DNA of 40,978 nucleotides, from positions 1 to 40,978 of the forward strand of contig JAAYUG010000008.1 in NCBI GenBank assembly GCA_012517825.1, given 5' to 3'. Made by a program: the position numbers and the translations under genes. The stretch is from Bacteroidales bacterium (GTDB taxonomy: Bacteria > Bacteroidota > Bacteroidia > Bacteroidales > JAAYUG01). Below the pieces are notes generated by a model. That model saw nothing but the letters and a program-made list of their open reading frames with translations. It was not told where the DNA came from and did not search any database. Below, in pieces: positions 3,367 through 21,552 of the stretch. The stretch's first letter is position 1. Every line of letters begins with the position of its first letter.

Positions 3367-4512
3367 ATGAGAAAGGAACTGGCAGTATTATGTATGGTAT
3401 GTTTCTCGTTGCAGGCAGCAGGCCAGGCGGTTACTGCCGAATTGAACGGGCAGGCGGCAGGTTGGGGAATGGTAAATTTACAGAAGCCATTTTATTATCA
3501 GTTTGGGGCGCGAACCCTTCCCGCCTTGTCAATTACAGGCAGTTTGGATTCGCTTCATCGCTTTGATGCAGAAGTGTCGGGGAATTTTTATACCAGTGCC
3601 ACGTTTACCGGGAATGCATACCAGGATGGCGTTGCCGGAATCAGACCCTACCGGGTCTGGGTTCGTTATTCAACTCCGGGGCTGGAACTGCGCCTGGGGC
3701 TTCAGAAAATCAATTTCGGGTCTGCCTCAATCCTCCGTCCTCTGATGTGGTTCGACCAGGTGGATCCGCGCGATCCTCTGCAAATTTCCGATGGTGTTTA
3801 TGCCCTTCTGGGGCGATATTATTTCGGCAACAACGCTGGGATTTGGCTCTGGGGCATATATGGAAACGGAAAGACTAAGGGATGGGAATATCTGCCAACA
3901 AAGGAAAAAACTGCTGAAGCAGGAGGAAGGTTGCAGCTGCTTGCAGGCCCCGGAGAAGTGGCATTCACCTGCCATCGCCGGTTAGCCGACTGTTCACAGT
4001 GGACCTATGATTCCGTTCCTGTTACCAGGTCCTTTGTTCACGAAAATCGGTTCGCAATCGACGGGAAATGGGACCTTGGCATAGGCATCAGCGGAGAAAT
4101 CGTGGTGAAGAAAACGGGCAGATTCTCTCCTCTGGTTCCCGAATGGGAAAAGTATATGAACATTGGTATGGATTACACATTTGCCGTTGGAAACGGCCTC
4201 GGGCTGGTACTGGAGCACCTTCTGATCCAGACCTCCGGTCATTTATTTGCTTCGTCCGGCAACACATCCTTTACGGCTCTTACTCTTTCCTATCCGCTGG
4301 GAGTGCTGGACCGTGTAGCCGGTATTTTTTTCTACGACTGGAGCCACAAATCCTTTTATCGGTTCATCAGCTTCAATAGGCAGTATGACAAATGGTCGCT
4401 GTATTGGATGGCATTCTGGAATCCGCAGAGTTTCACAATATTTCACAGCGAGACGAGACATAACCTAATGGCAGGAAAAGGTATTCAGTTTATGGTAGTA
4501 TATAATTTCTGA
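3367..4512 (+). CDS. Predicted outer-membrane beta-barrel protein, unclassified
   Basis: 381 residues with an N-terminal signal peptide (hydrophobic LAVLCMVCFSL, likely cut after AAGQA). The rest is rich in alternating aromatic/hydrophobic strands with glycine turns and ends in VVYNF; a C-terminal Phe is typical of substrates of the BAM barrel-assembly machinery. A block near residues 80-125 (VWVRYSTPGLELRLGLQKIN) is porin-like, but no family is recognised with confidence. It sits between the TetR gene (3-bp gap) and the ABC ATPase gene (5-bp gap), so it is almost certainly cotranscribed with them. It may be the outer-membrane end of the transport path encoded downstream. Confidence 0.75.
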   Translation: MRKELAVLCMVCFSLQAAGQAVTAELNGQAAGWGMVNLQKPFYYQFGARTLPALSITGSLDSLHRFDAEVSGNFYTSATFTGNAYQDGVAGIRPYRVWVRYSTPGLELRLGLQKINFGSASILRPLMWFDQVDPRDPLQISDGVYALLGRYYFGNNAGIWLWGIYGNGKTKGWEYLPTKEKTAEAGGRLQLLAGPGEVAFTCHRRLADCSQWTYDSVPVTRSFVHENRFAIDGKWDLGIGISGEIVVKKTGRFSPLVPEWEKYMNIGMDYTFAVGNGLGLVLEHLLIQTSGHLFASSGNTSFTALTLSYPLGVLDRVAGIFFYDWSHKSFYRFISFNRQYDKWSLYWMAFWNPQSFTIFHSETRHNLMAGKGIQFMVVYNF

Positions 4513-4517
4513 AACGT

Positions 4518-5213
4518 ATGGATATACTTATTGACATCAAAGGGCTAACCAAGCATTACCCTATGGGAAACAACCAGTTTACCGCCTTGCGCGATATAAA
4601 CATTTCCTTTGCGAGAGGGGAATTTACCGGAATAATAGGCCCGAGTGGTTCAGGAAAAACTACCCTCCTGAACATTATAGGTACACTGGATGTGCCCTCT
4701 GAAGGGGAAGTACTTGTACTGGGAAAATCAGTCGGAAAACTGACGCCCAAGGAAGCCGCTGACATAAGGAAGAAAAGCCTTGGCTTTATTTTTCAAACGT
4801 ACAATCTTCTACCGGTATATACGGTATACGAGAATGTGGAATTTCCCTTGCTATTGCTCGGATTGACAGAACAGGAACGCAGGAAGATGGTGGCAGAGGC
4901 CCTCGAATGGGTAGGCCTTGCTTCCAAAGCTGATTCCAGACCGGCACAGCTGTCAGGAGGGGAGTGCCAGCGTGTAGCCATTGCACGGGCGATGGTAAAA
5001 AAACCGTTTCTGGTGCTGGCCGATGAGCCCACGGCCAATCTGGATGCAGCCAACTCGCACCATATTCTTCAGACCATGGAGCTTCTGAACCGTGAACTGG
5101 GTACTTCCTTTCTCTTTGCCACACACGATGAGAAAGTAATTGGCTATGTGCGACGCAGGGTGAGACTTGACGACGGACGGCTGGCCGCCGATGAAATCGT
5201 AACCCCTAAATGA
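4518..5213 (+). CDS. ABC transporter ATP-binding protein, LolD/MacB type
   Basis: 231 residues, the normal length for a stand-alone LolD-type ATPase. It has Walker A GPSGSGKTT (residues 41-49), the Q-loop in FIFQTYNLLP, signature LSGGE (145-149), Walker B LVLADE (165-170) and the switch His in ATHDE. The short family form, with two FtsX-type permease genes directly after it, places it in the MacB/LolD/FtsE group. Proteins of this group drive extraction of lipoproteins or lipids, or mechanotransmission, rather than pore-like transport. It acts at the cytoplasmic face of the inner membrane. It is the third gene of the TetR operon. Confidence 0.95.
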   Translation: MDILIDIKGLTKHYPMGNNQFTALRDINISFARGEFTGIIGPSGSGKTTLLNIIGTLDVPSEGEVLVLGKSVGKLTPKEAADIRKKSLGFIFQTYNLLPVYTVYENVEFPLLLLGLTEQERRKMVAEALEWVGLASKADSRPAQLSGGECQRVAIARAMVKKPFLVLADEPTANLDAANSHHILQTMELLNRELGTSFLFATHDEKVIGYVRRRVRLDDGRLAADEIVTPK

Positions 5214-8433: not shown

Positions 8434-9162
8434 TCAGATTTCCTGAGACGGTTTTCTTTTGCTTTTATTGTGTTTGATGAGGTCGGCTTCGAGGTAGAAA
8501 ATAATTTCTTCTGCAATGTTTTTCGACTGGTCTCCGATGCGCTCCAGCCTTCTTACTACCGAAAGAAGGTGGAGAAGGGCAGGAATCTCTTCCGGGTTCT
8601 CCCGGATCAGTTCGGTAAAAGTATGGTAGGCTCCTTTGTTGATGGTATCGAGTTCTTCATCTTTCGAGAACACTACGCGTGAAAGGGTTGAATCACCGGT
8701 TTCAAAGGCACGCTGTATATCATGCAGCATGGTCAATGTCACGGCAAACATGGCAGGAACCCCTGATTTCTTTATAACCTCCGGGGGGAGTGGCTTTTCG
8801 AGATCGAGCACAATGTTGGCAATGGTCTTGGCATAATCTCCGGTTCGTTCCAGATTATAGGCTATTTTCAGCACGGAGAGTACAAACCTCAGATCAGCGG
8901 CTACCGGGGAAAAAAGTGCCAGGATGTTTTCGCACCCCAGGGTAATGTTCAGTTCAAAAGCATCAACCCTTTTTTCGTTCGCTTTGATTTCCATGGCCAG
9001 GTTCCGGTCATGATAATTCAGGGCTTCTTCTGCCTTGCTCACCTGGCTGATAACCAGGTTCCACATGCCAAGCAGGTTTTGTCTCAACTTTCCGAGTTCC
9101 AGGTCGAGATGGGTCGGAACCTCCGGATGTTCAGGTACGTATTGTTCGGGATTGATCGGCAT
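8434..9162 (-). CDS. phoU: Phosphate signalling complex protein PhoU
   Basis: 242 residues, all helical, with the two PhoU repeats. Each repeat carries the family metal-binding type motif: LERTGDYAKTIANI in the first half and LERIGDQSKNIAEEI in the second. PhoU links the state of the Pst phosphate transporter to the PhoR-PhoB two-component system and restrains the Pho response when phosphate is plentiful. The ATG at 9162 is chosen: a longer frame starts upstream at 9288, but it would overlap the end of pstB and has no family similarity. It follows pstB after 43 bases on the same strand. Its 3' end is 14 bases from the convergent LolA-like gene. Confidence 0.95.
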   Translation of the reverse strand: MPINPEQYVPEHPEVPTHLDLELGKLRQNLLGMWNLVISQVSKAEEALNYHDRNLAMEIKANEKRVDAFELNITLGCENILALFSPVAADLRFVLSVLKIAYNLERTGDYAKTIANIVLDLEKPLPPEVIKKSGVPAMFAVTLTMLHDIQRAFETGDSTLSRVVFSKDEELDTINKGAYHTFTELIRENPEEIPALLHLLSVVRRLERIGDQSKNIAEEIIFYLEADLIKHNKSKRKPSQEI

Positions 9163-9205
9163 TTTTGCTGTTTTTATTTTATAAGTAATCAGAAAAGGTA
9201 TCTTC

Positions 9206-10030
9206 TTATCCGAACCGGCCGGTAATGTAATTTTGTGTCTTCGGATCTTTGGGATTGGTGAAAATATTGATTGTGGTATTATACTCAACCAGTTCGCCCA
9301 GATAGAAAAAGGCCGTATAATCGCTTACACGGGAGGCCTGTTGCATGTTGTGTGTCACGATAATGATGGTATACTTCTGCTTCAGGTGATGGATCAATTC
9401 CTCAATTTTTGCGGTTGAAATCGGGTCGAGGGCTGAGGCAGGTTCATCCATTAACAAAACGGAAGGTTCAACGGCCAGGGCACGCGCTATGCAAAGACGC
9501 TGCTGCTGGCCACCGGAGAGGGCAAAGGCTGATTTTCCCAGATCGTCTTTTACTTCGTCCCAGAGTGCAGCCTTTACCAGTGACTCATACACCTTTTCTT
9601 CAATGAACTTATGGTTCCTGACGCCATTCACCCGCAATCCGTAGGCAACATTTTCGAAAATGGATTTCGGAAAAGGATTGGGTTTCTGGAAAACCATGCC
9701 AACCTTTTTACGAAGTTCATCGGGTTCAATGCTTCTGTCGTAAATATCCTGTCCTTCCAGATAAATCTCTCCGTCAATCCGGACGTCGTCGATCAGGTCA
9801 TTCATTCTGTTGAACAGCCTGATAAAGCTCGACTTTCCGCATCCGGAAGGGCCGATAAGGGCGGTAACCGTATTCCTTTCGGCCTTAAAACTGATGTTTT
9901 TCAGCGCATGAAATTCCCCATAGTAGAGATTCAGGTTCCTGGTCTCCAGAACAGGCGGTACAGAAGTCGTGCGCAGGAAGGTATTCTTTTCTTTTTGTTC
10001 TTCTTCGGTAACGAACATTACGTTTTGCAT
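9206..10030 (-). CDS. pstB: Phosphate ABC transporter ATP-binding protein PstB
   Basis: 274 residues. It has Walker [10 protein letters not shown] (residues 60-68), the PstB-specific FNRMNDLI and [16 protein letters not shown] segments, signature [15 protein letters not shown] and Walker B VLLMDEP followed by ASALDP. It energises the high-affinity Pst phosphate uptake system. An N-terminal extension of about 25 charged residues precedes the ABC domain; a start at Met5 is also possible. The usual partners pstS, pstC and pstA are not next to it; a phosphate-type porin gene lies upstream instead. Three 11-bp-spaced repeats in the 132-bp gap before it suggest phosphate control. Confidence 0.96.
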
Positions 10031-10092
10031 TTCTGAGATTTTACCAGTCGAATAAAAAACAGGGTAAAAGTACCTTTCCTTTGAAAATTCAG

Positions 10093-10120
10093 TATTAAAC
10101 CAATGTTAATCTATTGTTAA
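10093..10120 (-). promoter_or_regulatory. Putative Pho box upstream of pstB (three half-sites, 11-bp period)
   Basis: On the minus strand the half-sites are TTAACA, TTAACA and TTAATA, each separated by 5 bases, so the period is exactly 11. This is the geometry of PhoB (E. coli) and PhoP (Bacillus, TTAACA-type) binding sites, in which a dimer or tandem dimers bind one DNA face. It lies 63-90 bases before the pstB start. The repeat is seen directly; the binding protein is inferred from family knowledge and gene context. Confidence 0.65.
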
Positions 10121-10162
10121 ATATTCGCAGATACAGTATAAAAGAGTGTTCATTGTGCCCAA

Positions 10163-11500
10163 TCAAAACGTATATTGCAACCGGATGGTGAGAACATTGT
10201 CATTCAGATCTCCGGTATATCCTGAGAGGGCTGTTTTTTCATTTCTTACGATATCGTAATACAGCATCATTTTCAGATTCGTATCGTAGTGAAAGATATA
10301 GCCGAATCCATAGGTATCGTAACGGATATCGGCAGGAGAGAGGGTGGCAAAGGTGCCTGTACCGGCCGGTTTTCCTATTTCCTTTCCCCTGGCCCTGGTA
10401 TCCGGATCATACACATCGTATTTAAAAACGAGCTGGTGTTTGGTTTGGAGGATGGTGTGCACAACGTAAACAAGTCCGCCGGCAAAAGGACGTTCCATGG
10501 CCGGAAGGGGAGGAGCAACCGTAGTGACAATGCCCGTAACCGGGTCGGCTTTGCTGACGGCTTTATCTTTTGGCAGAGAGGAGGGACTGACGGTGGTTTC
10601 CGATGTGCCTCCGTGGAGGCCGGTCAGGTATTCCCCCCTCACAAGGGTTGTTCCGAGAACGGTCTTTACTGATACCTGTCCGTTCATGCCATAATATATC
10701 CGCCTGCCGGAATACAGACTGCCGGTTGAATCGGGCAGAAAAACCCTGAAACCGTCGTCGGTGGTTGTAAGGTCTTTAAAATATTTTTCCGTTCCGCTTT
10801 GCCAGCGTCCGTTGTAGTAGGAAAGTCCAAGAGTCCAGGCGTTTCCCTTGCTCACGGAAACACGGCCGATAAAATCCTTGTGGGAGTCGAAATCAGAAGC
10901 GATGCCGGTTCCGTTGAAGAAGCCCGCATCCGCCTTGAACCAGCTCAGGCCTGAGCGGCTTCCGGGATGCACTGAAAGCATGATGCCGGCATCCCGTTCT
11001 CCGGGGAAGAGGGTCTGGTAAACCCTGGCCCTTTCGGGCGATTCCCTGACACTGGATGACATGGTAATTTCGTTTCCGAAGGGACGGTTAAACAAGCCGG
11101 CTGTTATAACAAAAGTGCGGATCCAGGGGTCAGTAAGCTGAAAATAAACGTCTTTCGGGGCAATTCCTTTTTCGGTTATATCAATCTGTGTAACAAATTT
11201 CGAGAGGTTTCCCGACCAGGTCATTTTCACCCTTCCGCGCCGTATCATGAAACGGCTGTCAGAGTTTTCAGGAAAATCACCACCGGCGAAGGATTTAATC
11301 CCTTCCTTTTCGGCTACCTGAAACTGCGTTTGCAGATAGCCCGAAAACTGAATCTTTTTTAGTAAACGGATGGTTTCATCGGTTCTGGCTATTGATTTAA
11401 AAAGGCTGTCGGCTGTTTTATCATCCTGTGCATTGACCTTCATGCCGGCAGGCCACAGCAGGACAGCGATGATAGCAGTTAAAATAAAGATTCGATTCAT
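10163..11500 (-). CDS. Phosphate-selective porin (OprO/OprP type)
   Basis: 445 residues with a clean signal peptide (ILTAIIAVLLWPAG, cut near VNAQ). It matches the OprO/OprP porin family: FSGYLQTQFQ near the N-terminus, RRGRVKMTWSG, FVTQIDITEKG, and a block with LTDPWIRTFVITAGLFNRPFG. It ends in LQYTF, the C-terminal Phe expected of an outer-membrane barrel. It would let phosphate or other anions cross the outer membrane. The gene is upstream of pstB on the same strand but has its own putative regulatory region, four half-sites with an 11-bp period. Family assignment is firm; phosphate specificity rests mainly on context. Confidence 0.9.
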   Translation of the reverse strand: MNRIFILTAIIAVLLWPAGMKVNAQDDKTADSLFKSIARTDETIRLLKKIQFSGYLQTQFQVAEKEGIKSFAGGDFPENSDSRFMIRRGRVKMTWSGNLSKFVTQIDITEKGIAPKDVYFQLTDPWIRTFVITAGLFNRPFGNEITMSSSVRESPERARVYQTLFPGERDAGIMLSVHPGSRSGLSWFKADAGFFNGTGIASDFDSHKDFIGRVSVSKGNAWTLGLSYYNGRWQSGTEKYFKDLTTTDDGFRVFLPDSTGSLYSGRRIYYGMNGQVSVKTVLGTTLVRGEYLTGLHGGTSETTVSPSSLPKDKAVSKADPVTGIVTTVAPPLPAMERPFAGGLVYVVHTILQTKHQLVFKYDVYDPDTRARGKEIGKPAGTGTFATLSPADIRYDTYGFGYIFHYDTNLKMMLYYDIVRNEKTALSGYTGDLNDNVLTIRLQYTF

Positions 11501-11535
11501 GTTGCTTTAATGTTTCTGCAAATAACAAGCCTGAA

Positions 11536-11574
11536 TATTAACTGCATGTTAAATCTTTATTAGTGTAACATTAA
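11536..11574 (-). promoter_or_regulatory. Putative Pho box upstream of the porin (four half-sites, 11-bp period)
   Basis: On the minus strand the half-sites read TTAATG, CTAATA, TTAACA and TTAATA, each followed by 5 bases, giving an exact 11-bp period over four units. The array lies 36-74 bases before the porin start. The same half-site and period occur before pstB, which supports a common regulator, presumably a PhoB-family protein. Confidence 0.65.
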
Positions 11575-12450: not shown

Positions 12451-12523
12451 TGATCCAGCTGGGATTCGAACCCAGGACCCCATCCTTAAAAGGGATGTGC
12501 TCTACCTGCTGAGCTACTGAATC
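12451..12523 (-). tRNA. tRNA-Lys (anticodon TTT)
   Basis: A full 73-nt cloverleaf folds on the minus strand. The 7-bp acceptor stem is GATTCAG/CTGGATC (with one T:G pair). The D-arm is GCTC/GAGC. The anticodon stem CATCC/GGATG carries loop CTTTTAA, giving anticodon TTT. The T-arm is CTGGG with loop TTCGAAT, and the discriminator base is A. CCA is not encoded. It reads all AAR lysine codons. Confidence 0.97.
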
Positions 12524-12680: not shown

Positions 12681-13295
12681 ATGGACAACCGACTGCAGGA
12701 ACTTACGGAAAAGATTTACAGAGAAGGCCTTGAGAAGGGCAATCAGGAAGCAGAGAAGATCATTTCGGCTGCCAAAGCCCAGGCAGAAGAGATTATAAAA
12801 AAGGCCAGGGCCGAAGAAATCCGCATTCTTGAAGAAGCCAAAAAAGCTTCCGCTGAAATGCGCGAAAATACTATGGCCGAGCTTCGGCTTTCCATGCGGC
12901 AGGCAATGAACAACCTGCGACAGGAAATTACTGACCTGATCAGCAAAAAGGTTACCTCCCAGGCTGTCAAAGGAATTCCCGACGATCCGGCCTTTATCCG
13001 CGACATTCTTCTGGCCGTTGCCGCCAACTGGTCGCCCGATAAATCCGGACGAACCGACCTGGTTGTTCTTTTGCCGGCATCACGCGAAAAAGAACTGCGT
13101 GAATATTTCCTCTCCAAAGCGACCGACCTGCTTAAGAAAGGACTGGAACTGAAATTCGACGAAAACCTCACATCAGGGTTTGAAATTACCCCGGCCGACG
13201 GATCCTTCCGGATCAGCTTTACCGATGAAGTATTTGAGAACTTCCTGCGGGATTATCTCAAGCCAAGGTTAATGGATTATTTATTTGAGAAATAG
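12681..13295 (+). CDS. atpE (V-type): V-type ATP synthase subunit E
   Basis: 204 residues. The N-terminal half (about residues 10-95) is a long charged helix, EAEKIISAAKAQAEEIIKKA, typical of the peripheral-stalk subunit E. The C-terminal half is the globular domain that binds the catalytic head. It is the first gene of the seven-gene operon E-DUF2764-A-B-D-I-K. A short DUF2764 gene follows after 3 bases. No separate gene for the partner stalk subunit G/H is seen. Subunit E holds the A3B3 head static against the rotating axle. Confidence 0.93.
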   Translation: MDNRLQELTEKIYREGLEKGNQEAEKIISAAKAQAEEIIKKARAEEIRILEEAKKASAEMRENTMAELRLSMRQAMNNLRQEITDLISKKVTSQAVKGIPDDPAFIRDILLAVAANWSPDKSGRTDLVVLLPASREKELREYFLSKATDLLKKGLELKFDENLTSGFEITPADGSFRISFTDEVFENFLRDYLKPRLMDYLFEK

Positions 13296-13298
13296 GAC

Positions 13299-14153
13299 AT
13301 GTTCCGGCGAGAATACCACTGTTTCGTTGCAGGACTGCCCGATTTGCTGTTTGACGAAGGAAAGATTACCCAGACCCTGGAAACCTTCCGGCAGGAATTG
13401 AAGGAAGAACTGCACCCCGCTGATTACCGGCTGGTTCATATGGTTTTTCTTCCGTACGACCATCAGAACCTGATCCGCTTCCTGAAAGACGGCTCAGACG
13501 ATTTTGATGTACTCGGAAACTATGCGCCCGAAGATTTTGCCGCCGAGGTACAAAACCTCGATGCCATCATCCCGGAACCTTCGCGTATTGAACCCTACCT
13601 TGCCAGCCTGATCAGGCGCTGGTACGATGAAAATACCGACCGGTCACAGCTCGACCCGGAGCGGATGCTTCTGGAAGGGTATTACGCCATGATGGCTGAA
13701 GCGCCCAACGATTTTCTGCAGAAATGGTCGGCTTTTGACCTGACCCTTCGGAACATTGTAACGGCAGTGAATTGCCGGCGCTTCGGAAGGGAAATCGCCC
13801 CGGAGCTGATCGGCGATAATCCCGTTAACAGTCAGCTTGTGCGCAACCCGGCCCGCGATTTTGGCCTGGCTTCCGAACTGGACCAGATTGAAAAAATCCT
13901 GCAGATTTGTGAATTGCCCGACCTGCTGGAAAGAGAGAAAAAACTGGATTGGCTCCGCTGGGAATTTATCGACGAGGCCGTTTTCTTCCACTATTTTGAT
14001 ATAGAGAAGATCCTTGGCTACCTGCTCCGGTTAATGATCGCCCTGCGCTGGTTCCGCCTTGAACGACCCGCCGGCGAAAGCCTGTTCCGCGAATTGCTGG
14101 AAAAGATGGAAAAATCATATCAGTTGCCCGATGAATTTCACCGTAAAAAATAA
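13299..14153 (+). CDS. DUF2764 family protein of the V-ATPase operon
   Basis: 284 residues, soluble and mostly helical. It opens with FRREYHCFVAGLPDLLFDE, the (Y/F)xFVAGLPDL start of DUF2764. Family members occur with V-type ATPases in Bacteroidota, Spirochaetes and Chlamydiae. It occupies the place where subunit C would be expected, and no C-subunit gene is present. A plausible role is the link between axle and membrane ring, as subunit C/d does, but that is inference. It is 3 bases after E and 15 bases before A. Confidence 0.85.
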   Translation: MFRREYHCFVAGLPDLLFDEGKITQTLETFRQELKEELHPADYRLVHMVFLPYDHQNLIRFLKDGSDDFDVLGNYAPEDFAAEVQNLDAIIPEPSRIEPYLASLIRRWYDENTDRSQLDPERMLLEGYYAMMAEAPNDFLQKWSAFDLTLRNIVTAVNCRRFGREIAPELIGDNPVNSQLVRNPARDFGLASELDQIEKILQICELPDLLEREKKLDWLRWEFIDEAVFFHYFDIEKILGYLLRLMIALRWFRLERPAGESLFRELLEKMEKSYQLPDEFHRKK

Positions 14154-14168
14154 CCGATAGAATCAGAT

Positions 14169-15926
14169 ATGTTGACGCAAGGAAATGTTACCGGAATTAT
14201 TGCAAACCTGGTCATTGTCAAAACCCATGGCCCTGTTGCGCAGAACGAAATCTGCTATATTAACCTGGACGGGGTTTTGCTGATGGCCGAAGTCATTAAG
14301 GTCATCGGCGACCTGGCCTATGTGCAGGTTTTCGAAAGCACACGCAATCTGAAAGTGGGTGCTCCGGTCGAATTTCAGGGTCATATGCTGGAAGTTACCC
14401 TGGGACCCGGCATTCTGTCGAAAAACTATGACGGACTGCAGAACGACCTGAACAAAATGACCGGCGTGTTTCTTCAGCGCGGAGAATATACCCCGGCCCT
14501 TGATGAGGGAACTATCTACCATTATGTTCCTCTGGCCAGGGTAGGGCAGACTGTACGTGCCGGCGACTGGATCGGGGAGGTAAGAGAAAACTGGATTCCC
14601 CACAAAATTATGGTCCCTTTCAAATTTCAGGGAACTTACAAGGTGAAGGAATTGCGCCCTGAGGGCGATTACCGCATCAGTGAAACCGTTGCCGTACTGG
14701 TCGACAGCGAAAACAAGGAACATCCTGTTACCATGGTGCAGAAGTGGCCGGTGAAAATCCCCATCAAGGCCTATCGCGAAAAACCAAGACCCTTCAAACT
14801 GATGGAAACAGGGATACGGGTAATTGATACCCTGTACCCGATTGTGGAAGGAGGTACCGGATTCATTCCCGGTCCGTTTGGTTGCGGAAAAACCGTGCTT
14901 CAGCACGCCTTGTCAAAACAGGCCGAAGCCGACATGGTCATTGTTGCCGCCTGCGGTGAGCGTGCCAATGAGGTGGTGGAACTGTTTACCGAGTTTCCTG
15001 AGCTGGAAGACCCCCGTACAGGAAGAAAACTGATGGAACGTACCACCATCATTGCCAATACATCCAATATGCCGGTGGCGGCCAGGGAAGCTTCGGTTTA
15101 TACCGCCATGACCATTGCAGAATATTACCGCTCCATGGGCCTGCGGATCCTGCTGCTGGCCGACTCAACCTCCCGCTGGGCACAGGCACTGCGCGAAATG
15201 TCGAACCGTATGGAAGAACTTCCGGGTCCGGATGCCTTCCCGATGGACCTGCCGGCCATTATATCCAACTTCTATGCCCGTGCAGGCTTTGTGTATCTGA
15301 ACAACGGCGAAACCGGTTCCATTACCTTTATTGGTACGGTTTCTCCTGCCGGTGGGAACCTCAAAGAGCCGGTAACGGAATCTACCAAGAAGGCAGCGCG
15401 CTGTTTCTATGCCCTCTCACAGCAGAGGGCCGACAGCAAACGGTATCCGGCCATTGACCCTCTGGAAAGCTATTCCAAGTACCTCGAATATGAAGAGGTG
15501 CAGGAATACCTCAAACACCATATTGCAGAAAACTGGCTTTCCAATGTGCTTCTGGCCCGCGATATTCTCCAGCGCGGAAGGGAAGTGGCTGAACAGATCA
15601 ACATCCTCGGCGACGATGGTGTACCCATTGATTACCACGAGAAATTCTGGAAAGCCGAAGTTGTTGACTTTATAATCCTTCAGCAGGATGCGTTTGACAG
15701 GATCGACCAGTCAACCCCCCTGCCGCGTCAGGAATATATGCTCAACAAGGTGCTCGAAGTGTACCATACCCGTTTCCAGTTTGAAACATTCGAAGAGGTG
15801 GGTACCTTCTTCAAACGGATTATCAACCAGTTTAAGCAGATGAACTATTCCGAGTTCCAGTCGGAACAGTTCAAAAAGTATGAAGAAGAATTGCATGCCA
15901 TTATCAACGAAAGAAAAATAGCGTGA
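14169..15926 (+). CDS. atpA (V-type): V-type ATP synthase catalytic subunit A
   Basis: 585 residues, normal for NtpA/VMA1-like catalytic subunits. It has the P-loop GPFGCGKT (residues 235-242), the non-homologous insert typical of A subunits (about 110-190), and downstream ACGERANEVVELFTEFPEL and DSTSRWAQALREMS. It hydrolyses or makes ATP in the A3B3 head. Its last 4 bases overlap the start of subunit B (coordinates share 15923-15926), so the two stoichiometric partners are translationally coupled. Confidence 0.98.
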   Translation: MLTQGNVTGIIANLVIVKTHGPVAQNEICYINLDGVLLMAEVIKVIGDLAYVQVFESTRNLKVGAPVEFQGHMLEVTLGPGILSKNYDGLQNDLNKMTGVFLQRGEYTPALDEGTIYHYVPLARVGQTVRAGDWIGEVRENWIPHKIMVPFKFQGTYKVKELRPEGDYRISETVAVLVDSENKEHPVTMVQKWPVKIPIKAYREKPRPFKLMETGIRVIDTLYPIVEGGTGFIPGPFGCGKTVLQHALSKQAEADMVIVAACGERANEVVELFTEFPELEDPRTGRKLMERTTIIANTSNMPVAAREASVYTAMTIAEYYRSMGLRILLLADSTSRWAQALREMSNRMEELPGPDAFPMDLPAIISNFYARAGFVYLNNGETGSITFIGTVSPAGGNLKEPVTESTKKAARCFYALSQQRADSKRYPAIDPLESYSKYLEYEEVQEYLKHHIAENWLSNVLLARDILQRGREVAEQINILGDDGVPIDYHEKFWKAEVVDFIILQQDAFDRIDQSTPLPRQEYMLNKVLEVYHTRFQFETFEEVGTFFKRIINQFKQMNYSEFQSEQFKKYEEELHAIINERKIA

Positions 15927-17248
15927 TGGAAAAGAAAGCTTTTCAGAAGATATACACAAAAATCACCCAGATTACCAAGGCAACCTGCAGCCTCCAGGCA
16001 ACAGGAGTAGGGTATGATGAACTGGCCCTGGTGCATGGCCGTCTGGCCCAGGTGGTAAAAATTATCAACGACCAGGTTACATTGCAGGTATTCAGTGGCA
16101 CCGAAGGCATTCCTACCAATGCCGAAGTGGTATTCATGGGGCATCCTCCTGTGCTGAGGGTGAGCGATGACCTGGCCGGCCGCTTTCTGGATGCCTATGG
16201 CGAACCCATCGACGGAGGCGGAGCTGTTCTGGGGCAGGAAAGGCAGATCGGAGGCCCTTCGGTGAACCCGGTGCGGCGCAAACAGCCTTCTGAACTTATT
16301 GCCACCGGTATTGCCGGTATCGACCTGAACAATACCCTCGTTACCGGGCAGAAGATCCCCTTCTTTGCCGACCCCGACCAGCCGTTCAATCAGGTAATGG
16401 CACTGGTGGCCCTCAGGGCAAAAGCCGATAAGATTGTGCTGGGAGGCATGGGACTTTCCAACGACGACTACCTGTTCTTCCGCAATGTGTTTGAAAATGC
16501 AGGAGCACTCGACCGCATAGTGGCCTTTATTAATACCACCGAAAATCCGCCTGTAGAAAGGCTTCTGGTACCCGATATGGCGCTGACTGCCGCCGAGTAC
16601 TTTGCCGTTGACAAGAAAGAAAAGGTACTGGTTCTGCTGACCGACATGACCCTCTATGCCGACGCCCTTTCGATTGTGTCGAACCGTATGGACCAGATTC
16701 CGTCGAAAGACAGTATGCCCGGTTCATTGTACTCCGACCTGGCCAAGATTTACGAAAAAGCGGTTCAGTTCCCCGACGGAGGAAGCATCACCATCGTGGC
16801 TGTTACCACACTTTCAGGCGGCGATATCACCCATGCCATACCCGATAATACCGGCTATATTACCGAAGGTCAGCTCTTCCTGCGGCGCGATACCGAAATC
16901 GGTAAAGTAATCGTCGACCCCTTCCGGTCGCTGTCGCGTCTGAAACAACTGGTGATTGGAAAACAAACCCGCGAAGACCATCCCCAGGTGATGAATGCGG
17001 CTGTTCGTCTGTATGCCGATGCCGCCAATGCACGTACCAAACTGGAAAACGGCTTCGACCTCACCGACTACGACGAACGATGCCTGCGCTTTGCCAGGGA
17101 ATACTCCGAAAGCCTGCTGGCCATTGATGTGAATGTCGATACCACTACCATGCTCAATATTGCCTGGAACCTCTTCAGCCGGCACTTTACCAAATCGGAA
17201 GTGGGTGTTAAAAACGAATTTGTTGAAAAATACTGGCCTAAGAACTGA
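15923..17248 (+). CDS. atpB (V-type): V-type ATP synthase subunit B
   Basis: 441 residues. It has the A/B-family fold but lacks a P-loop, as expected of the non-catalytic subunit: the corresponding position reads PFFADPDQPFNQ. Conserved blocks include VLLTDMTLYADALS, DQIPSKDSMPGSLYSDLA and PDNTGYITEGQLFL. It alternates with subunit A in the hexameric head. Start codon overlaps the end of subunit A; subunit D follows after 15 bases with an AGGAG ribosome site. Confidence 0.98.
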   Translation: MMEKKAFQKIYTKITQITKATCSLQATGVGYDELALVHGRLAQVVKIINDQVTLQVFSGTEGIPTNAEVVFMGHPPVLRVSDDLAGRFLDAYGEPIDGGGAVLGQERQIGGPSVNPVRRKQPSELIATGIAGIDLNNTLVTGQKIPFFADPDQPFNQVMALVALRAKADKIVLGGMGLSNDDYLFFRNVFENAGALDRIVAFINTTENPPVERLLVPDMALTAAEYFAVDKKEKVLVLLTDMTLYADALSIVSNRMDQIPSKDSMPGSLYSDLAKIYEKAVQFPDGGSITIVAVTTLSGGDITHAIPDNTGYITEGQLFLRRDTEIGKVIVDPFRSLSRLKQLVIGKQTREDHPQVMNAAVRLYADAANARTKLENGFDLTDYDERCLRFAREYSESLLAIDVNVDTTTMLNIAWNLFSRHFTKSEVGVKNEFVEKYWPKN

Positions 17249-17263
17249 TAAGCAGGAGTTGCC

Positions 17264-17862
17264 ATGGCTATTAAATTTCAGTATAATAAAACGGCACTTC
17301 AGGCACTGAACAAGCAGTTGCGCATCAGACAACGTGCACTGCCCACCCTTCAGAACAAGGAATCGGCTTTGAGGATGGAAGTGAAGCGGGCAAAAGACCG
17401 GATGCAGCAGCTCGAAAATGAACTGGAAGCACGGATTGCACAATACAACCATATGGCACGGTTGTGGAGCGAGTTTCGCCCCGACCTGATTGCCATAAAG
17501 GATGTCCGCCTTTCCATTAAAAAAATTGCCGGCGTTAAGACGCCCGTGCTGGAAGAAATTCTCTTCGAAACCCGTCCCTTTCATCTTTTCAGTCAGCCTT
17601 CCTGGTTTCTTGATGGTATTGAAATCCTCAAGGAGCTTGCTTCCATTGCCATCGAAAAGGAATTTTTCCGTTCCAAAATGGAACTCCTCGATTACGCCCG
17701 GAAGAAGACGACACAGAAAGTGAACCTGTACGAAAAGGTGCAGATTCCCGGTTATGAGGATGCCATCAGGAAGATTAAGCGCTTTATGGAAGACGAGGAA
17801 AACCTGTCCAAATCGGCTCAGAAAATCATTAAGCAACGTCAAATGCAAGTGGAGGTTCAGTC

Positions 17863-17866
<4 letters not shown>
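17264..17866 (+). CDS. atpD (V-type): V-type ATP synthase subunit D (central axle)
   Basis: 200 residues, predicted as a long helical hairpin, the shape of the rotor axle. It begins AIKFQYNKTALQALNKQL, and the C-terminal helix contains KTTQKVNLYEKVQIPGYEDA, as in the family. It turns inside the A3B3 head and couples it to the membrane ring. The usual axle partner F is not found in the operon. AGGAG at 17254-17258 is a good ribosome site for this start. The end overlaps the start of subunit I by 4 bases. Confidence 0.95.
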
Positions 17867-20344
<2,478 letters not shown>

Positions 20345-20507: not shown

Positions 20508-21542
20508 ATGAAGCGTGGTTTTGCCTCCGACAACAATGCCCCCGTGCATCCGTTGGTTATGGATGCCCTTCAGAGGGTCAATGAAGGGCATTGCATTGCT
20601 TACGGTGACGATCCGTATACCGGACGTGCCGTTGCAAAAATGAAAGAAATCTTTGGCGCTTCGTGTGAGGTCTTTTTTGTCTTTACCGGAACCGCCGCCA
20701 ACGTGCTGGGTTTAACTGCCGCCACCAGGCCTTTTAATTCCGTTATATGCGCTGAAACGGCCCATATTCATACTGATGAATGCGGAGCTCCCGAACGGTT
20801 TACCGGATGCAAAATTCTTTCTATTCCTACCGGAAACGGCAAAATAGCACCCGATCAGGTTGCCAGGTATCTTCACGGATTTGGATTTGAACACCATTCC
20901 CAGCCGGGCGTCATTTCCATTACCCAGGCAACGGAAATGGGCACGGTGTATTCCCTGCAGGAGATCAGGGAACTGGCCGATATGGCGCATGCACACGGCC
21001 TGATGCTGCATGTCGACGGAGCACGGCTGGCGAATGCGGCTGTTTCGCTTTCCTGCTCTTTCGGAGAGATGATCGCCGGCACCGGAGTGGATATCCTGTC
21101 ATTTGGCGGAACCAAAAACGGCCTTATGTATGGTGAGGCCATTGTATTTCTCAACAGCCGCCTGGCAGAAAATTTCAAATACATCCGGAAACAGGGGATG
21201 CAGCTTGCCTCAAAAATGCGGTATATGGCGGCGCAGTTCGATGCTTACCTGACCAATGATTTGTGGAAAAGCCTGGCAGAACATGCCAATTCCATGGCGC
21301 AGTTACTCGAAAAGGAAGTGCGGAAAATACCGGGAATCGAAATTACCCAGCCCGTGCAGGCAAACGGTGTTTTTGCCATTGTGCCTCCTGAAGTGATTCC
21401 TCTTCTGCAAAAGGAATATTTTTTCTATGTTTGGGATGAAATGCGGTCAGAAGTCAGGTGGATGTGCTCCTGGGATACCACCGAGGAAGACGTGCTCGGC
21501 TTTGCTGAAATATTGCGTAAAACAATGGATAGCAGAAAATAA
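20508..21542 (+). CDS. ltaE: Low-specificity L-threonine aldolase
   Basis: 344 residues, PLP-dependent fold type I. It begins RGFASDNNAPVHP, typical of this family. It has the PLP-ring-stacking His in CAETAHIHTDE (His86), the Asp that holds the pyridine nitrogen in LHVDGARLANA (Asp170) and the PLP-binding lysine in SFGGTKNG (Lys203). It cleaves L-threonine and L-allo-threonine to glycine and acetaldehyde in the cytosol. A TTG six bases upstream is in frame, but the ATG at 20508 is the better start. No clear promoter is seen in the 163-bp gap after the V-ATPase terminator. Confidence 0.93.
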   Translation: MKRGFASDNNAPVHPLVMDALQRVNEGHCIAYGDDPYTGRAVAKMKEIFGASCEVFFVFTGTAANVLGLTAATRPFNSVICAETAHIHTDECGAPERFTGCKILSIPTGNGKIAPDQVARYLHGFGFEHHSQPGVISITQATEMGTVYSLQEIRELADMAHAHGLMLHVDGARLANAAVSLSCSFGEMIAGTGVDILSFGGTKNGLMYGEAIVFLNSRLAENFKYIRKQGMQLASKMRYMAAQFDAYLTNDLWKSLAEHANSMAQLLEKEVRKIPGIEITQPVQANGVFAIVPPEVIPLLQKEYFFYVWDEMRSEVRWMCSWDTTEEDVLGFAEILRKTMDSRK

Positions 21543-21552
21543 AAACCGCCGT

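Follow-up and report, generated by a model that had tools for sequence, protein, structure and literature searches.

Probable Pho boxes with an 11-bp period and a fixed spacing to the predicted -7 element upstream of a porin gene and pstB in a Bacteroidales genome

The PhoP box of Bacillus subtilis, which has a Firmicute promoter context, consists of TTAACA-like repeats separated by about 5 bp, and its hexamer and spacing are almost those of the sites described here. The E. coli Pho box is also made of direct repeats of an 11-bp unit, to which PhoB is bound head to tail (PMC4415409), and about 10 bp separate such boxes from the -10 element downstream (PMC1906773); it differs from the present sites in its core, which is CTGTCAT there and (G/T)TAA(C/T)A here, and in the accompanying promoter element, which here is the Bacteroidota -7 element TAnnTTTG. 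The cyanobacterial SphR Pho box, CTTAACCT in three tandem copies with 3-bp linkers (PMC1906773), has in common with the present sites the 11-bp period, the presence of at least three copies and the TTAAC core, but it belongs to another phylum and works with another sigma factor, and the Bacteroidota sites have as many as six copies and a constant distance of 13 bp to TTTG. Within the Bacteroidota, earlier work has established that PhoB governs the uptake of phosphate and the survival in abscesses of B. fragilis and that Flavobacterium mounts a large response to low phosphate. According to the searched passages of Wakimoto et al. 2013 (PMC3547664), pst expression in B. fragilis requires PhoB (BF1576), and the recombinant protein shifts a 512-bp pstC promoter fragment in electrophoretic mobility shift assays (EMSA). 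The Pho box as a kind is already known; a Bacteroidota sequence for it, with a fixed promoter ruler, is without published precedent in the open literature that we searched, most subscription papers lying outside that scope.

The window, by which we mean the whole 40,978-bp stretch of DNA that was analysed, is contig 8 of a 3.3-Mb assembly of 207 contigs, and it carries a porin gene, pstB and phoU on the minus strand (Table 1). The regions upstream of the porin gene and of pstB contain arrays of tandem TTAAYA half-sites with spacers of 5 bases throughout, giving an exact 11-bp period; this 11-bp direct-repeat organization is conserved in relatives. Rechecking of the sequence confirmed the half-site letters, coordinates and 5-base spacers of the original prediction and placed the half-sites on the minus strand. 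The range it assigned to the feature, 10093-11574, does hold the half-sites, but it spans the whole porin gene and the features proper are two intergenic arrays; half-sites and period were correctly seen, but their link to the promoter, a fixed distance from the -7 element, was overlooked. Degenerate half-sites close to the -7 element, such as the fourth one of the pstB array, are likewise present in Bacteroides pstC promoters.

Table 1. Positions in the window of the half-sites, predicted promoter elements and genes of the phosphate locus
Feature	Sequence	Position	Strand	Basis or remark
Porin Pho box, half-site 1	TTAATG	11569-11574	minus	sequence
Porin Pho box, half-site 2	CTAATA	11558-11563	minus	sequence
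Porin Pho box, half-site 3	TTAACA	11547-11552	minus	sequence
Porin Pho box, half-site 4	TTAATA	11536-11541	minus	sequence; 13 bp from its end to TTTG
Porin predicted -7 element	GTTATTTG	11519-11526	minus	TTTG exactly 13 bp past last half-site, as conserved among pst promoters
Outer-membrane porin, 445 aa, remote Porin_O_P		10163-11500	minus	PF07396, E 1.2e-4, just over cut-off
pstB Pho box, half-site 1	TTAACA	10115-10120	minus	sequence
pstB Pho box, half-site 2	TTAACA	10104-10109	minus	sequence
pstB Pho box, half-site 3	TTAATA	10093-10098	minus	sequence
pstB Pho box, degenerate half-site 4	TTTTCA	10082-10087	minus	in register, 13 bp before predicted -7 TTTA
pstB predicted -7 element	TACTTTTA	10065-10072	minus	conserved spacing; differs from TAnnTTTG at one base
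pstB, phosphate ABC transporter ATPase		9206-10030	minus	TIGR00972, 404 bits
phoU, downstream of pstB		8434-9288	minus	PF01895, E 3.3e-38

At 2 to 3 mismatches the genome has as many reversed as forward matches to the repeat pattern (6 forward and 8 reversed at 2 mismatches, so that only the top of the list is informative), as might be expected if the arrays were chance repeats in A/T-rich intergenic DNA. Against this, no other place in the 3.3-Mb genome matches TTAAYA-N5-TTAAYA-N5-TTAAYA as well as the two window sites (0 and 1 mismatch), both in this one phosphate locus, and the array is strongly conserved elsewhere (see below). In the window the triple pattern with up to 3 mismatches has four matches, all at these arrays, where 0.16 are expected; dinucleotide shuffles of each intergenic region attained the observed match in 0 of 5000 cases, and in 0 of 2000 when the period was left free from 8 to 14. 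Both window arrays are real and above chance, and an origin as chance repeats has a negligible probability.

For Bacteroides and Flavobacterium the octamer TAnnTTTG has been published as the -7 element (PMC7366714, PMC9723704, PMC12632263), with a position of -12 to -5 (PMC9723704). The porin octamer has the TTTG (11519-11522) with GT instead of TA, and the pstB octamer has TA at the right place with TTTA (10065-10068); the predicted transcription starts are near 11514 and near 10060, respectively. The 13 bp between the end of the last half-site and TTTG are equivalent to 9 bp before the octamer, and with the octamer at -12 to -5 the last two half-sites fall at about -27 to -22 and about -38 to -33. 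In pst upstream regions the distance from the start of a paired half-site to TTTG is nearly always 19, 30, 41, 52 or 63 bp, with 67 of 84 such distances in one residue modulo 11; when all half-sites were taken, with the sorted control, 115 of 191 TTTG distances in pst-cluster regions fell in that residue, versus 8 of 126, a flat distribution, before unrelated genes. The arrays are thus held at a fixed position beside the core promoter, one that would replace a -35/-33 element, and both window sites obey this spacing.

Homologues of the window porin are present in 15 of 60 relatives, and many of them are the first gene of a porin-pstS-pstC-pstA-pstB-phoU cluster in another family. A second outer-membrane protein family, in which BLAST detects no likeness to the window porin, heads short-type pst operons with strong arrays (L082, L085, L092, L094, L097, L098 and L099). 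We located pstC in 91 of 119 genomes of the order, and the survey of upstream regions extended over about 40 Bacteroidales families. Operon-strand TAA[CT] pairs, counted with no model in 43 pst upstream regions, number 46, 27 and 18 at spacings of 11, 22 and 33 bp, against mostly about 7 at other spacings. The original prediction had raised the prospect that such arrays might be equally common before unrelated genes; they are specific to pst clusters, (G/T)TAA(C/T) pairs at a spacing of 11 being present in 37 of 74 pst-cluster regions versus 4 of 112 unrelated ones (Fisher p 4e-14), in a split for which ten regions were moved into the pst class by inspection. A purely BLAST-based split gave 27 of 64 versus 14 of 122 (p 3e-6), with a first control set that was contaminated, 10 of its 14 regions with an 11-bp pair preceding, by inspection, other pst-cluster porins or pstS. 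By these counts and by the genome scans below, the arrays lie upstream of phosphate-starvation genes and are rare elsewhere.

Half-sites that are A/T-rich and one turn apart could also represent helically phased DNA, bent or UP-like, that boosts promoters without any specific regulator. The period, however, is exactly 11 over three steps and the strand is fixed; conservation across pst arrays extends to the C of TAAC and to the G/T at position 1, the spacers vary while the hexamers stay constant, and the array is absent from unrelated promoters of the same genomes. We regard this explanation as extremely unlikely.

The B. fragilis pstC promoter contains six hexamers, GTAACA GTAACA GAAACA TTCAAA TTCACA TTAATA, in 11-bp steps, followed by 13 bp and TTTGC. 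Among 39 distinct promoters aligned by the TTTG anchor only, 37, all from Bacteroides, Phocaeicola and near kin, retain the six hexamers while the spacers drift, and the information content is 1.48 bits in half-site columns versus 0.80 in spacers (p 3e-6). Judged from its position, the array is very likely covered by the 512-bp EMSA fragment. This PhoB-bound promoter comes from the same phylum as the window and has the same array in the same register; it is unlike the window sites in that binding was shown for a 512-bp fragment, the searched main-text passages of PMC3547664 giving no box sequence. Because B. fragilis PhoB binds this fragment (PMC3547664) and the promoter has the same array, we infer that a PhoB-type protein would bind the window sites as well.

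The original prediction had proposed a matrix search of the genome, and this was run with a 60-bp, sequence-only model (R1) built from 28 promoters of other genomes. These training promoters were chosen for fitting the array, which makes the model partly circular; this does not apply to the test genome or to non-pst genes. The E-values are roughly calibrated, and several of the listed sites have no phosphate link. Its matches in this genome include two phoB-like genes, the gene of a Pit accessory protein and a phosphoesterase gene, which are supporting matches of the sort called for in the original prediction. Rank 1 (E 4e-4) is the divergent region beside a phoB-like gene and rank 5 precedes the second such gene; the porin (match 11516-11573, E 0.013) and pstB (E 0.42) are ranks 3 and 9, both with modest scores. 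Rank 6 precedes a Pit accessory DUF47 (PhoU_div) gene that is 40% identical to a Flavobacterium gene with a top site, rank 8 a calcineurin-type phosphoesterase, rank 14 a secreted protein that is 43% identical to a Flavobacterium protein that has a site too, rank 18 the TonB receptor upstream of that secreted protein, and rank 21 a glycosyltransferase with 47% identity to a site-bearing B. fragilis protein. A composite pattern (two half-sites plus TAnnTTTG) was used at 0-1 mismatch only, the reversed pattern outnumbering the forward one at 3 mismatches, and its matches include both phoB-like promoters.

Several further sites of this genome may be recorded. The strongest R1 site points away from the phoB-like gene, toward a 159-aa MORN-repeat protein. 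The TonB receptor and the secreted protein, each with a Pho-type site, lie at L227 from 1578 onward and in L231 (G000:C13). Rank 2, at C30:21505 (21505-21550; L213 about 4506-4551), has no known phosphate link and precedes only a very short acidic ORF of about 47 aa; it is possibly the box of a small Pho-regulated protein or a chance site. Lower sites precede genes that we take, from sequence alone, to be phosphofructokinase and S-adenosylmethionine synthetase genes, which have no known phosphate link. A VTC-domain gene near C115:7993 was dropped as a target since the site is on the other strand.

In B. fragilis, R1 rank 2 is the promoter of the best PhoB candidate itself, and further matches precede pstC, a PHO4 phosphate transporter (Pit), polyphosphate kinase and a phosphoesterase. 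In a table of PMC3547664, a phosphate permease (BF3715) stands with the pst genes among those that fall strongly in the phoB mutant, and the phosphate-responsive genes include polyphosphate kinases. High-ranking matches in Flavobacterium limicola precede a TonB receptor, DUF47, pstS, a relative of the rank-14 secreted protein and the porin. This agrees with F. johnsoniae, where low phosphate induces TonB receptors as well as hypothetical lipoproteins (PMC8115612). One Flavobacterium protein (L284) that looks PhoX-like by eye has no Pfam or PDB match and is not claimed as such. In all, phosphate genes are recovered by this model in three genomes.

The same genome encodes two tandem OmpR-type, phoB-like regulators on contig 206 (L061 6492-8082), with identities of 41% and 36% to the B. 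fragilis PhoB candidate. The effector domain of the first matches E. coli PhoB (chain of 1GXP; E 2e-16), and the recognition helix is nearly the same, DRTIDVHIRKLRE in this genome versus DRTVDVHIRRLRK in E. coli PhoB. No gene of this genome, these two included, passes the TIGR02154 PhoB cut-off (212 versus 296 bits), and the B. fragilis PhoB candidate is below it too, so that either of the two phoB-like genes may encode the acting regulator. Both phoB-like genes are likely autoregulated, because array-type sites precede each of them. No kinase gene was found beside them in the stretch read, and the most PhoR-like kinase is encoded elsewhere, on contig C89. The arrays could instead be the sites of another OmpR-family regulator: PhoB is not alone in this family in binding tandem repeats spaced by about one helical turn, at least three full-length OmpR-type regulators are encoded in the genome, and the two phoB-like genes are tandem copies with no adjoining kinase gene in the stretch read. 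Yet the targets in three genomes are phosphate genes, among them phoB itself, Pit and polyphosphate kinase, and the B. fragilis pstC promoter that is bound by PhoB (PMC3547664) has the same array, so a regulator other than PhoB is very unlikely.

As judged from the DNA, both window sites are very probably Pho boxes, tandem sites at which a PhoB-type response regulator is predicted to bind and to activate transcription in response to phosphate; the pst-cluster specificity of the arrays and the model matches at phosphate genes support this interpretation, which was already that of the original prediction. At low phosphate the regulator would switch on transcription of the porin gene and of pstB-phoU. 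A (G/T)TAA(C/T)A hexamer every 11 bp, about one helical turn, would align PhoB effector domains head to tail along a single face of the DNA, and the half-site at about -38 to -33 would overlie the place of the weak -33 element. Bound PhoB would then substitute for the -33 contact and bring in RNA polymerase that carries the primary sigma factor of the Bacteroidota, in a manner similar to that of E. coli PhoB, which acts from boxes about 10 bp upstream of -10. With somewhat less assurance, we consider it probable that one rigid Pho promoter (hexamers every 11 bp, then 13 bp to TTTG), in which PhoB replaces the -33 contact of the unusual primary sigma factor, is common to Bacteroidales and Flavobacteriales, and that it allows PhoB regulons to be deduced from sequence class-wide, with Bacteroidota-specific secreted proteins, TonB receptors and a glycosyltransferase among their members. 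A box with a fixed promoter ruler would allow regulon prediction in Bacteroidota of gut, plants and sea and gives the exact bases to mutate, and the Pho-type sites suggest that PhoB directly controls unnamed secreted proteins and a glycosyltransferase, the latter possibly in lipid remodelling.

The genome search yielded a single true PstB, that of the window (TIGR00972 404 bits, the next best having 143 bits), although with an assembly that is 95% complete a second one could be missing. The TTG start of phoU in the ORF list, which overlaps pstB, is probably too far upstream. The Pst genes are split between the window, which has the porin, pstB and phoU, and contig 149 (L026), which has pstS, a short-type pstC and pstA, with TTAACT-TTAACA-TTAGCG-TTTAAA in the pstSCA promoter. 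Since the transporter is divided in this way over two loci, similar boxes at both may keep its parts co-regulated. A beta-galactosidase-like gene follows pstSCA on contig 149. In the window, V/A-type ATPase genes (subunits E-like, A, B, D and I; 12681-19869) adjoin the phosphate locus, and a tRNA is encoded at 12451-12523 on the minus strand.
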